From: an uncultured Sphingorhabdus sp.
GTDB taxonomy: Bacteria > Pseudomonadota > Alphaproteobacteria > Sphingomonadales > Sphingomonadaceae
Direction: 5' to 3'
NCBI GenBank assembly: GCA_905479715.1
Contig: CAJQNR010000071.1
Location: forward strand, 1 to 33,743
Length of the DNA: 33,743 bases
The position numbers and the translations under genes were made by a program. A model generated the notes under the pieces. It did no database searches. It saw only the letters and a list, made by a program, of their open reading frames with translations, and was not told where the DNA came from. This document shows positions 24,584-28,065 of this stretch, piece after piece. Position 1 is the stretch's first letter. Each line of letters starts with the position of its first letter.

Positions 24584-25012
24584 CTAAAAAACCGCGATCG
24601 CTGCGTGGATTGCCAGCGCAATGATGCAAAGGCTCGACAGCGCAAATACGGAGAAGCGATATAATACCCGGTTGCTGGTGACCTGAATAAGACTGTGCAA
24701 CACGCGCAAGCCGACATAGACCCAGGCGATGGTCAGATTTAGCCCAAAATCCTGCCCGGCAAGGATCAAAACGACACAAATTGCGTAAAAAAGGGTCGGT
24801 TCTGTCAGCAGATGGTTATAATTATGCGCTTTCCACTGCACTTCCGGTGGCAACAGTTCATCGAGGTCACCACCCTTGCCACCGACCAGATTGGCGGTGT
24901 CGATCTTGGCCTTGTTCATCGCCGGAATGCGGGTGACGTACATCCACAGCCACATCAGCATCGTCCACAAAATGAGCGCAACCATCGGTTGCAGCAACAG
25001 GCTATTCTCCAT
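24584..25012 (-). CDS. MAPEG family membrane protein (copy 1)
   Basis: A 142-residue four-helix membrane protein of the MAPEG group (microsomal glutathione S-transferase/leukotriene synthase fold). Hydrophobic segments are seen at about 5-27, 73-90, 92-112 and 118-140. The conserved polar stretch KAHNYNHLLTEPTLFYA before TM2 is the family signature, where the corresponding region binds glutathione in eukaryotic members. The start is backed by AGGGAGGAAA before the ATG. It is the downstream member of a tandem pair with 25042-25473 (29-nt gap); the two share PPEV/PDKV-(N/Q)WK-(A/S)HNY-HL--PTLFYA but differ widely elsewhere, so the duplication is old. Confidence 0.88.
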   Translation of the reverse strand: MENSLLLQPMVALILWTMLMWLWMYVTRIPAMNKAKIDTANLVGGKGGDLDELLPPEVQWKAHNYNHLLTEPTLFYAICVVLILAGQDFGLNLTIAWVYVGLRVLHSLIQVTSNRVLYRFSVFALSSLCIIALAIHAAIAVF

Positions 25013-25041
25013 AATATTTCCTCCCTTGGTTCATTATTATT

Positions 25042-25473
25042 CTAGAAAAGCGTGATCCATAGCGCGTTGATAGCCATGATCAGCAGGCAGATCGTCGACG
25101 CGATAAACAGCAGAAAGCGGACATTGACTAGATTGACGGTCGCTTGCCAGATGCTGTGGATGATCCGGATGATGACATAGCCCCATGCGAGATAGAGATT
25201 GAGGCCATGACCCGCACCGGCGATCGCAAGAATCGCGACCGTGGCGTAAAACAGCGTCGGCTGTTCCATCAAATGGGTGTAATTATGGGATTTCCAGTTC
25301 ACCTTGTCGGGGATCACGCCTTCCAGGTCGCTCCCCCGTCCACCCGGTGGTGCCTCGCTCAGGTCCGCGCCTGACTTGGCCATGGCCGGAAATCTTGTGG
25401 CCGCCATCCAGAACAACATGATCAGCGACCACAGGACAAGCACCGACGCCGGTGCCAAAATTGCAATTTCCAT
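25042..25473 (-). CDS. MAPEG family membrane protein (copy 2)
   Basis: A 143-residue paralogue of the neighbour. The signature is WKSHNYTHLMEQPTLFYATVAILAIAG, with four hydrophobic segments and the loop RFPAMAKSGADLSEAPPGGRGSDLE after TM1. I chose the ATG at 25473 because GGGGAGG lies 9 nt upstream; a GTG-type start at 25491 would contain that site. The ribosome-binding site is part of a small inverted repeat (25486-25501). It follows the ornithine decarboxylase gene by 76 nt on the same strand and may be co-transcribed with the polyamine genes. Confidence 0.88.
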   Translation of the reverse strand: MEIAILAPASVLVLWSLIMLFWMAATRFPAMAKSGADLSEAPPGGRGSDLEGVIPDKVNWKSHNYTHLMEQPTLFYATVAILAIAGAGHGLNLYLAWGYVIIRIIHSIWQATVNLVNVRFLLFIASTICLLIMAINALWITLF

Positions 25474-25485
25474 TATTTCTGTCCT

Positions 25486-25501
25486 CCCCAAAACTTTGGG
25501 G
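25486..25501 (-). promoter_or_regulatory. Inverted repeat that includes the ribosome-binding site of MAPEG copy 2
   Basis: On the minus strand CCCCAAAGTTTTGGGG is followed at once by AGGACAGAAATAATG. The 3' arm GGGG forms the first half of the Shine-Dalgarno sequence GGGGAGG, so folding could hide it. With a full stem the loop is only 2 nt, so 6 bp with a 4-nt loop is more realistic. Confidence 0.4.
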
Positions 25502-25549: not shown

Positions 25550-26749
25550 TCAGGCCCCGGGGAAAGACACGACATTGTCGCGGTCGGAACGATCCAGATT
25601 GTCACCGACATAGAGGCTCGCCATCGGTTCATCGGTCACATCATATTCGTGGCTGTTGCCATAGCCGTTGAATTTTGTCCGCATCGCCGAACCATAAGCG
25701 CCGAGCATACCGATCTCGATATAATCGTCTGCCTTGATGTTGTCGGGCAGGTTGAATGGTCCGGCCATGAAATCCATATCGTCGCAGGTTGGCCCGTAAA
25801 AACTATATCCGGTGGATGTCCCGTTTTCGGCATCGGCACCAATCAGGCGCACCGGGAAACGCCAACCGATATGGGCCGCATCGAAAAGCGTGCCATAGGC
25901 ACCGTCGTTGATGAACAGCTCGTTGCCGCGACGGCGTTCAACCTTGACCACCAGCGAACTATATTCTGCCGACAGCGCGCGGCCTGGCTCGCACCAGAGT
26001 TCGGCGGAATAGCTGATCGGCAGATCCTCGAACGTGCGGTCAATGGCGGTGAAATAATGGTTCAGCGAAACCGGTTCCAGATCGGGGTAGATCGAGGGAA
26101 AACCGCCACCGACATTGACGATATCGACCGTCACCGACGCGCCGACAATGGCGGTACGCACGCGTTCGAGAGCATGGACATAGGCAAGCGGCGTCATCGC
26201 CTGGCTGCCGACATGGAAACAGATGCCAAGACTGTCGGCGGACTGCCGGGCGCGCTGCAGCAGTTCGGCCGAGTCATCGACATCGACGCCAAATTTGGAG
26301 GCGAGGCTGATTTCCGCGAATTCCGAGGCGACCCGGATGCGGACGCAAAGGGTCAGGTCTTCGGCATGTTCCGTTCCCAACTCGATCTTTTCCAGCTCTT
26401 CGATACTGTCGAGCGAAAAAATACGCACGCGGTGGTCGCGATAGGCTTCCCGGATCGACGCGAGCTGTTTGACCGGATTCATGTAGCAGAGCGTCGCGTC
26501 TGGCAAAGCCGCGCGCACGATGCGGACTTCGTCGATCGAAGCCACGTCAAAATGGGTTACGCCTTCTTCCCACAGCAATTGCAGCAATGCGGGCGAAGGA
26601 TTCGCCTTCACGGCATAGAGCGATTTGCCGGGAAATTGACCGACAAAATAGCGTGCAGCACGACGGGCGGCGTGCGGCCGGTTAAGCAAAACTGGAATAT
26701 CGGGGCTGAGAGCCCTCGTTAGCTCCTCAGCATCATGGTAATTATGCAA
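25550..26749 (-). CDS. odc: Ornithine decarboxylase, fold-III PLP type
   Basis: A 399-residue enzyme of the eukaryote-like ODC/DAP decarboxylase fold that makes putrescine from ornithine. The PLP lysine is Lys48 in YAVKANPSP; the HVGSQ segment, the glycine loop VDIVNVGGGFPS, WCEPGRALSAE and YGPTCDDMDFMAGPF (active-site Cys and Asp) are all present. Some relatives also act on lysine. The frame is open upstream to 26944, but the conserved part begins at HNYHDAEELTRAL; TTG at 26749 with AGGGGG 9 nt upstream gives the family length and is my choice. No ATG is available in this part. It is the third gene after the carboxynorspermidine synthase and decarboxylase genes and has its own 146-nt leader. 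Confidence 0.9.
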   Translation of the reverse strand: MHNYHDAEELTRALSPDIPVLLNRPHAARRAARYFVGQFPGKSLYAVKANPSPALLQLLWEEGVTHFDVASIDEVRIVRAALPDATLCYMNPVKQLASIREAYRDHRVRIFSLDSIEELEKIELGTEHAEDLTLCVRIRVASEFAEISLASKFGVDVDDSAELLQRARQSADSLGICFHVGSQAMTPLAYVHALERVRTAIVGASVTVDIVNVGGGFPSIYPDLEPVSLNHYFTAIDRTFEDLPISYSAELWCEPGRALSAEYSSLVVKVERRRGNELFINDGAYGTLFDAAHIGWRFPVRLIGADAENGTSTGYSFYGPTCDDMDFMAGPFNLPDNIKADDYIEIGMLGAYGSAMRTKFNGYGNSHEYDVTDEPMASLYVGDNLDRSDRDNVVSFPGA

Positions 26750-26762
26750 CTCAAGGGACCCC

Positions 26763-26891
26763 CTATCGGCTAAGATCGATTGAGCTGCCTTGCGGATTCG
26801 CAAGCGGCCATGGGGCAGCGAAGCGCGGATATATGGTTGCTTTCCTATTCTGTAAAGACCTGCAGTTAGAGAAAATGTAGCAATAGAACAT
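26763..26891 (-). CDS. Candidate 42-residue leader peptide (uORF) upstream of ornithine decarboxylase
   Basis: An ATG at 26891, next to the nspC stop, opens a 42-codon frame that ends with TAG at 26763-26765. The stop lies within TAGGGGG, the ribosome-binding site of the ornithine decarboxylase, 13 nt before its TTG start. The peptide starts MFYCYIFSNC and contains the basic and proline-rich stretch YPRFAAPWPLANPQG. The start has only a weak Shine-Dalgarno (GAG 9 nt upstream). Other readings of the leader exist, including an ATG in CCATGGCC in another frame that yields a 12-residue peptide. Translation is therefore a hypothesis based on the stop/ribosome-binding-site overlap. Confidence 0.4.
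   Translation of the reverse strand: MFYCYIFSNCRSLQNRKATIYPRFAAPWPLANPQGSSIDLSR
26784..26819 (-). promoter_or_regulatory. Structured leader of the ornithine decarboxylase gene (speF-motif candidate)
   Basis: On the minus strand GCTGCC (26819-26814) pairs with GGCAGC (26789-26784), and inside it TTGCG-AATC-CGCAA (26803-26790) forms a perfect 5-bp stem with a tetraloop. The speF RNA motif is a known conserved leader upstream of ornithine decarboxylase in alphaproteobacteria; position and gene fit. I cannot confirm the match to the covariance model. Confidence 0.5.
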
Positions 26892-26895
26892 TTTT

Positions 26896-28065
26896 TTAGC
26901 TCAAACGGTCCCGAAATGTCGTCCAATCGAAGCTTTTGGTACATTTCAGGCCATCATTTGCGCTGTTCCACAGCCAGATCGAGGGCAGGGGAACACCGTT
27001 GAAGGTGTTGGTCTTGACCATCGAATAATGCGCCTGATCGAGAAAGGCTATCCGTTGTCCGACATGCGGGGCTTCGGGGAGGATATAATCGCCGATAATA
27101 TCTCCTGCCAGACAGCTCGGGCCCCCGAGTCGAATGGCTGTCCCCTCGCTGCGCTCACCCAGCATCGCCGGTCGATAGGGCGCCTCGATAACGTCCGGCA
27201 TATGGCATGTTGCCGAAATGTCGGTAATGCCAACCGGCATGCCATTGTCGAAAACATCCAGTATCTCGCCGACCAATATCCCCGCATCCAGCGCAACGGC
27301 CTCGCCTGGTTCCATATAAATTTCGCAGCCGGAGCGGGCTTTCAGGTCTTTCAGGAAGGCAACCAGCGCATCGCGATCATAATCATCGCGGGTGATATGA
27401 TGGCCGCCACCAAGGTTGATCCATTTCAGGTTGCCGAAATGCGGCGCAATCTTCGGCTCCACCTTCTCCCATGTCCGCTGCAGTGCATCGAAACCCTGTT
27501 CGCAGAGATTATGAAAGTGGATTCCCGACAAATGTTGGAAATGGCCGGGCTGCAACTGGCTGATCGGGAATCCCAGCCGGCTGTGGGGCTGACTGGGGTC
27601 ATATTTTTCTGTTTCACCGAGCGCTATCTCGGGATTAATTCTTAAACCAATTTCCGAACTATCAAGTTTATTATTCTGATTAGAATAATTTTTCCATCGA
27701 TCTATCTGATCCGGATTATTGAACGTGATATGCGCGGAAATCTCGACAAGTTCGGTCAGGTCAGCCGCTTTATAAGCCGGTGAATAAGTGCTGATCGGCC
27801 CGCAAAAATGCGCCTTTGCAAGTCGCGCCTCCCACAGTCCCGAAGCGCAATAGCCATCAAGATATTCGTCGATCAAGAGAGCAAGAGACCACATGGAAAA
27901 GGCCTTGAGCGCCAACAGGACCTTGGCTCCGGAACGTTCCCTGATATCCGCCAAAATCGCCAGATTTCGCCGTACCGCGACTTCATCCACGACAAAGGCA
28001 GGCGAGGGAACCCGCTTCAGGTCAAAATGCGCAAATGCGCCGGGATCGCCTGCCTTGGTATCCAT
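26896..28065 (-). CDS. nspC: Carboxynorspermidine/carboxyspermidine decarboxylase
   Basis: A 389-residue fold-III PLP enzyme that decarboxylates carboxyspermidine (or carboxynorspermidine) to spermidine (or norspermidine). The N-terminal SPAFVVDEVAVRRNL and the PLP lysine Lys54 in LLALKAFSMW are family features that set NspC apart from ODC. Further motifs are HFHNLCEQGFD, INLGGGHHITRDDYD, YMEPGEAVALDAG, DISATCHMPDVIEAPYRP and GPSCLAGDIIGDY. It starts 1 nt after the synthase stop, so the two are co-translated. Together with the synthase and ODC this is the alternative spermidine pathway that uses aspartate semialdehyde rather than decarboxylated SAM. Confidence 0.95.
   Translation of the reverse strand: MDTKAGDPGAFAHFDLKRVPSPAFVVDEVAVRRNLAILADIRERSGAKVLLALKAFSMWSLALLIDEYLDGYCASGLWEARLAKAHFCGPISTYSPAYKAADLTELVEISAHITFNNPDQIDRWKNYSNQNNKLDSSEIGLRINPEIALGETEKYDPSQPHSRLGFPISQLQPGHFQHLSGIHFHNLCEQGFDALQRTWEKVEPKIAPHFGNLKWINLGGGHHITRDDYDRDALVAFLKDLKARSGCEIYMEPGEAVALDAGILVGEILDVFDNGMPVGITDISATCHMPDVIEAPYRPAMLGERSEGTAIRLGGPSCLAGDIIGDYILPEAPHVGQRIAFLDQAHYSMVKTNTFNGVPLPSIWLWNSANDGLKCTKSFDWTTFRDRLS

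Follow-up and report, generated by a model that had tools for sequence, protein, structure and literature searches.

In enterobacteria the ornithine decarboxylase (ODC) gene is reportedly controlled through its leader, SpeFL / speF. A leader resembling it in this respect was examined in contig CAJQNR010000071.1 of an uncultured Sphingorhabdus sp. (assembly GCA_905479715.1), where it precedes the ODC gene on the minus strand of the analysed stretch of 33,743 nucleotides, referred to below as the window. The leader was compared with those of the genus Parasphingorhabdus and of other genera. It differs from SpeFL in its conserved upstream open reading frame (uORF), an 11-codon stretch that extends across the ODC start in a reading frame other than that of ODC.

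The closest described system is the odc1 motif, also named uORF-25-1, with 272 alphaproteobacterial examples upstream of ODC genes (PMC8632094). The text of that paper describes a P1 stem carrying the ribosome-binding site in its right shoulder, a pseudoknot formed from the 5' end, and a pair of UUG starts with two bases between them; a uORF of 11 residues begins at the first. Reporters in E. coli showed that both UUG codons are used, and expression in this foreign host was modest and higher in minimal than in rich medium. Three mutants of the S. echinoides element, placed just before the pseudoknot nucleotides, abolished expression of the main open reading frame (ORF), and two of them left uORF expression little changed (PMC8632094). 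No ligand is given in the accessible text of PMC8632094. No description of odc1 beyond this paper was found in the open-licence literature, including work from 2021 on, nor was an earlier description of the Parasphingorhabdus type found there. The speF element (RF00518) is likewise an alphaproteobacterial RNA upstream of an ODC gene, but its 153-position model has no match here and the accessible text of PMC1273637 describes no tandem UUG starts. The spermidine riboswitch is a further case of polyamine-related RNA control, but is a close variant of an S-adenosylmethionine (SAM) aptamer, and searching the accessible text of PMC10853860 by term gave no mention of odc1 or ornithine decarboxylase.

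Set beside these systems, the window leader belongs with the published odc1 motif, as one form of it (PMC8632094). It lies directly upstream of ODC, contains two UUG starts separated by two nucleotides, opens an 11-codon uORF (LSCIITMMLRS*) from the first of them, keeps the helix strands running from the 5' end into the loop (GCTGCC and GGCAGC), and is followed by genes of the MAPEG family (pfam01124). A P1 stem with the ribosome-binding site in its right shoulder was absent from 25 of the 26 distinct Parasphingorhabdus leaders, including that of the window; these lack the P1-forming loop strand, in the genus a local hairpin covers the Shine-Dalgarno (SD) sequence and the starts instead, and the window leader was therefore classed as an odc1 variant rather than as a canonical member. 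The genus appears to have replaced the part of odc1 that hides the ribosome-binding site. The correspondences used, GCUGCC:GGCAGC as the pseudoknot, GGGACUUCC:GGRGGUCCC as P1 and CCGCAA as the mutated positions, rest on the text of PMC8632094.

Distribution and conserved core

A covariance model (R1) was built from 43 leaders and its matches were counted at an expectation value (E) of 0.1 or less. It matched 312 of 396 genomes of the order, 310 of them in family f1 (310 of the 313 sampled there) and two weakly in other families (E 0.022 and 0.086). The 84 genomes of the order that gave no match comprised three of genus g70 together with 37 and 44 assigned to other families. In a sample of the class 26 of 385 genomes were matched; five belonged to f1, and the 21 others scored E 0.0016 to 0.094 and had ODC downstream at none of the 21 loci. 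ODC was found downstream of all 63 matched f1 loci that were fetched. Ten of 37 genomes searched again gave extra matches, which either fell on the 3' half of the leader already found or were weak (E >= 0.001).

At the edges of this distribution, three family genomes of genus g70 (L168, L169 and L170) lack both the element and a close ODC, their best decarboxylases being 28-29% identical, and G177 of that genus has one weak R1 match elsewhere (E 0.058). The odc1 core decays in genus g73, where it is recognisable in L164, partial in L166 and reduced to a short stub in L165, with the tandem TTG codons remaining. Outside f1, the ODC leader of G071 (L171:349-364, family f8) gave no R1 match; it ends GGAGGTCCCATGAATG, in which four bases separate two ATG codons and a 6-codon frame begins at the first. 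This layout may be distantly related to the tandem starts.

In total 172 leaders were collected, 152 of them distinct over one stretch and 142 over the uORF stretch. L048 (without upstream sequence), L165 (a reduced leader missed by the pattern), duplicates of the window and loci other than f1 ODC leaders were excluded. Since L166 and L167 received no pseudoknot assignment, 150 leaders remained, 26 from the genus and 124 from other genera. The genus set came from 29 genomes with a leader (L002-L030), and three further genomes of 67-82% completeness (G004, G008 and G022) yielded no close ODC. The aligned leaders contain six near-invariant blocks, GCUGCC, CCANGG, CCGCAA, GGCAGC, GGRGGUCCC and UUGARUUGC. 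Most leaders have CCANGG between GCUGCC and the strand complementary to the SD (anti-SD strand); in several genera, represented by L147, L148, L149, L151, L160 and others, a longer, hairpin-forming insert occupies this place.

The pseudoknot strands were located by their flanks and not by complementarity, which anchored 134 of the 152 distinct leaders automatically. All six pairs were kept in 123 of these 134, and L144, L152, L209 and L220 carry changes on both strands that preserve all six pairs. A later pass assigned the strands of 19 leaders by eye, including L137, L150 and L221, which had been misplaced automatically; the compensated changes cited here come from the automatic pass.

The tandem starts have the form TTGAGTTG in the window and in 25 of the 26 genus leaders. 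The uORF is exactly 11 codons long in 135 of 142 distinct leaders, compared with 22.6 expected when the ODC codons were resampled synonymously (141 leaders tested), and in a thinned set it has this length in 24 of 28 (expected 4.5). Its stop is created by ODC codons that are otherwise seldom used, either Val GTA (90 of 142; an uncommon codon at 5.9% of Val codons) or Leu CTA (23 of 142; a rare one at 2.2% of Leu codons), together 113 of 142. This comparison of codons indicates that the 11-codon length is under selection in the family, and provides independent evidence that the short overlapping uORF matters.

Upstream of the core, a pair of -35 and -10-like boxes recurs at fixed spacing in the leader alignments, in which the hairpin arms and the SD-start block are also strongly conserved. 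When the 124 leaders of other genera were anchored on the element, conservation peaked at TTT and TAT, and the columns separating the two carried 0.0-0.3 bits. Both boxes are kept in the 26 genus leaders, where the neighbouring columns are conserved too.

The Parasphingorhabdus variant and its proposed mechanism

A loop strand complementary to the SD block was detected (shuffle p<=0.05) in 112 of the 124 leaders of other genera; 95 of the 124 carry exactly GGGACTTCC, and most of the 12 leaders without a significant strand keep a shorter GGGAC-type match. No such strand was found in 25 of the 26 distinct genus leaders, the window included, where the best loop-SD pairing had p values of at least 0.16 and the position is occupied by a segment that forms a hairpin. 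The remaining genus leader, L029, retains the old type. The longest uninterrupted loop-SD run is 4-6 bp in the genus against 5-13 bp elsewhere, with 4 of the 124 other leaders at 5-6 bp.

Against spacer shuffles, the segment from GGCAGC to the starts had a better fold (p<=0.05) in 23 of the 26 genus leaders but in only one of the 124 others. In the usual local fold GCAGCUCAA pairs with UUGAGUUGC and GAUC with GGUC, covering the SD and both starts, and the hairpin shares five bases with the conserved GGCAGC strand. The nested fold calculated for the window gave unpaired probabilities of 0.04 for the SD, 0.03 for the first UUG and 0.00 for the ODC start. Forcing GCUGCC:GGCAGC in the window raised these to 0.13, 0.16 and 0.73 respectively and cost 7.5 kcal/mol. 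That the variant arose once was not rejected (p-AU 0.34); the free tree needs two changes, and L029 (G009) lies on a long branch.

We consider the leader to be a Parasphingorhabdus-type derivative of the odc1 RNA in which two folds compete over the SD and the tandem starts, with a probability of roughly 0.72. Transcription would start just downstream of the TTTACA and TATATC boxes, so that the mRNA would begin near GCUGCC. In most other genera a strand in the pseudoknot loop, GGGACUUCC, would pair with GGRGGUCCC and so sequester the SD. In the window, where the missing loop anti-SD strand would reduce GCUGCC:GGCAGC to a simple hairpin, CUCAAUCGAUC would be the strand that pairs with the SD-start region, and in the closed state GCAGCUCAA..GAUC would pair with GGUC..UUGAGUUGC, hiding the SD and both UUG codons. 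In the other state GCUGCC:GGCAGC would break the GCAGC:GUUGC part and, since the hairpin shares five bases with GGCAGC, would free the ODC start (the second UUG) and leave the SD largely covered. The overlapping 11-codon uORF would begin at the first UUG and compete with ODC for initiation. We infer both the switching between the folds and any signal, which would most likely be a polyamine-pathway metabolite. The published mutants that lose main-ORF expression and keep uORF expression (PMC8632094) are consistent, by analogy, with selective control of the start. The comparison itself shows the conservation, the compensated pseudoknot changes in other genera, the selected uORF length across the family, and the absence of the anti-SD strand together with the local hairpin in the genus.

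Several observations weigh against this reading. In the alignment of the first 43 sequences the covariation of the pseudoknot was weak, with 31 of 500 shuffles reaching the observed score and an RNAalifold covariation term of -0.09; the compensated examples were found among more divergent leaders added later. Of 150 leaders, 101 can form the alternative GCAGC:GUUGC pairing in full and 49 lack at least one of its pairs, so that it is not a family-wide rule; a start-blocking pairing common to the whole family was not adopted for this reason. Genus leaders L025 (0.09), L030 (0.055) and L029 (0.295) miss the 0.05 level in the hairpin test, and the genus hairpin hardly varies and therefore offers no covariation of its own. 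In the six genus leaders folded, the forced state lay 0 to 9.1 kcal/mol above the closed one, a difference that may allow hardly any switching in these models. Within the genus, where the stop falls in the common codon CTG in 16 of 19, the uORF-length test is weak (19 of 19, expected 12.2), and conservation of the uORF peptide exceeds that of resampled sequences only slightly (0.258 compared with 0.219, standard deviation 0.014, 24 sequences). A strict consensus promoter scan of the window found none.

Competing explanations

A protein or small RNA, and not a metabolite, might bind the conserved sequence while the fold only sets a low basal rate. That odc1 has no ligand in the accessible text of PMC8632094 would fit this explanation, and the higher reporter expression in minimal than in rich medium, seen in a foreign host, does not decide the matter (PMC8632094). 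The primary sequences of CCGCAA, GGCAGC and the SD block are very highly conserved, which also favours this explanation; on balance we regard it as somewhat unlikely.

UUG is generally a weak start codon, and the tandem UUG codons and the hairpin could simply give a constant low output of ODC without any sensing. The stable fold over the starts and the modest reporter expression of the published case (PMC8632094) agree with such a poor-start leader. The compensated pseudoknot changes and the near-invariant unpaired blocks seem to go beyond what a fixed low rate needs, and make this explanation unlikely.

It is quite improbable that the leader is a canonical odc1 acting exactly as in other genera, with a sequestering loop strand that was not recognised. 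The remaining odc1 hallmarks that were tested are indeed kept, but the best loop-SD pairing stands at shuffle level in 25 of the 26 genus leaders and the loop-SD runs are shorter than most of those elsewhere.

The last explanation comes from the sequence-only reading of the window, which had proposed that a ribosome finishing or stalling on a 42-codon frame could control ODC translation. The layout it described was found as given on the minus strand: the upstream stop ends at 26896, 146 nucleotides separate it from the in-frame ODC TTG, the TAG of the 42-codon frame, which begins with an ATG, leads into TAGGGGG, and the two-part hairpin (26819-26784) pairs exactly, GCTGCC with GGCAGC and, in its inner part, CTTGCG with CGCAAG. 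The reading is right in part, since the leader resembles a translational control element of ODC that has a uORF, a structured RNA and a meaningful TTG start; the uORF that had been named is the wrong one. An arrest of the SpeFL type at the C-terminal part of the frame is extremely improbable: the frame exists, its stop runs into the SD and a PQGSSIDL stretch recurs across the genus because the RNA at that place is conserved, but the ATG is present in one of 29 Parasphingorhabdus genomes (the window), the frame is cut by a stop within the -10 box (its TAG) in 12 of 29 and by other stops and indels in genus relatives, and its start lies upstream of the conserved promoter-like boxes. The frame is closed elsewhere, nearer than the window ATG, in a further five of the 29 genomes and open that far in 12; among these 12 only the window has an ATG there, and L014 has an in-frame ATG further up, within the upstream gene. 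The frame is thus broken in relatives that keep the stems, an outcome that the sequence-only reading had itself named as refuting its proposal, and it does not supply the conserved peptide, made upstream and finished before ODC, that marks an arrest leader of the SpeFL type. Judged from these relatives the 42-codon frame is accidental, and the suggestion of YPRFAAPWPLANPQG as a sensing peptide has no support.

Three further candidates were set aside. An ODC start upstream of the second TTG, in the longer open frame, meets a stop within 10 codons upstream in 11 of the 26 distinct genus leaders, and this frame looks accidental from the alignment. A 13-codon frame from the ATG in CCCCATGG, judged by eye, is disrupted in several members of the genus, where indels cut or shift it, and its ATG is absent from the CCAAGG and CCAGGG leaders (1 of 26 in the genus, 31 of 124 elsewhere). 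Identity with speF was rejected on covariance-model searches: RF00518 gave no match in the window, none above cut-off in 98 relatives, where the weak matches listed (32 of 98 at E<=1) were not on ODC leaders, and none in 10 loci. With E values up to 10 allowed, Rfam matched 26500-27150 only with a miRNA family, which scored far below its cut-off (19.3 against 60 bits) and was taken as chance, and no Rfam match fell on the other leaders examined.

Feature positions, gene context and implications

Positions and supporting observations of the features in and around the ODC leader of the window
Feature	Position	Strand	Observation
ODC, TTG start 26749-26747	25550..26749	-	domains Orn_Arg_deC_N and Orn_DAP_Arg_deC
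11-codon uORF, TTG start 26754-26752, LSCIITMMLRS, stop TAA	26719..26754	-	overlaps ODC start; length conservation
GGGGGTCCC, SD block	26755..26763	-	25/26 genus leaders, 69/124 others; GGAGGTCCC in 51/124
CTCAATCGATC, genus-specific strand opposite GGTC..TTGAG (SD and both starts)	26774..26784	-	local fold compared with spacer shuffles
GGCAGC, 3' pseudoknot strand (PK3)	26784..26789	-	strand conservation and pairing tests; GCAGC within it has a possible alternative partner, GUUGC, over the ODC start
CCGCAA, block before 3' pseudoknot strand	26790..26795	-	26/26 genus leaders, 110/124 others
CGCTTGCG, small hairpin where most other genera have anti-SD strand GGGACTTCC	26799..26806	-	alignment; anti-SD complementarity absent in 25/26 genus leaders
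GCTGCC, 5' strand, taken as odc1 pseudoknot helix (PK5)	26814..26819	-	present in almost every leader; in other genera its changes are compensated in GGCAGC
-10-like box TATATC	26828..26833	-	column conservation; transcription would start at about 26817-26824
-35-like box TTTACA, 17-nt spacer to -10	26851..26856	-	column conservation anchored on element
42-codon frame	26763..26891	-	genuine frame, not conserved, not considered functional

The 5' neighbour of ODC is a decarboxylase with an Orn_DAP_Arg_deC domain, which the sequence-only reading named nspC, and a gene with saccharopine dehydrogenase domains lies further upstream. Downstream of ODC, two adjacent MAPEG-family genes occupy 24584-25491, a gene type that the text of PMC8632094 lists downstream of odc1.

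More broadly, and tentatively, odc1 could be a metabolite-sensing RNA that chooses between overlapping starts, in which Parasphingorhabdus swapped the expression platform from a loop-SD stem to a start-codon hairpin that competes for the pseudoknot strand. If this is true, the two would form a natural pair of expression platforms on one conserved core. A lineage that keeps the core (GCUGCC, CCGCAA, GGCAGC, the tandem UUG codons and the 11-codon uORF) and has a new sequestering stem would separate the core of the element from its output part.

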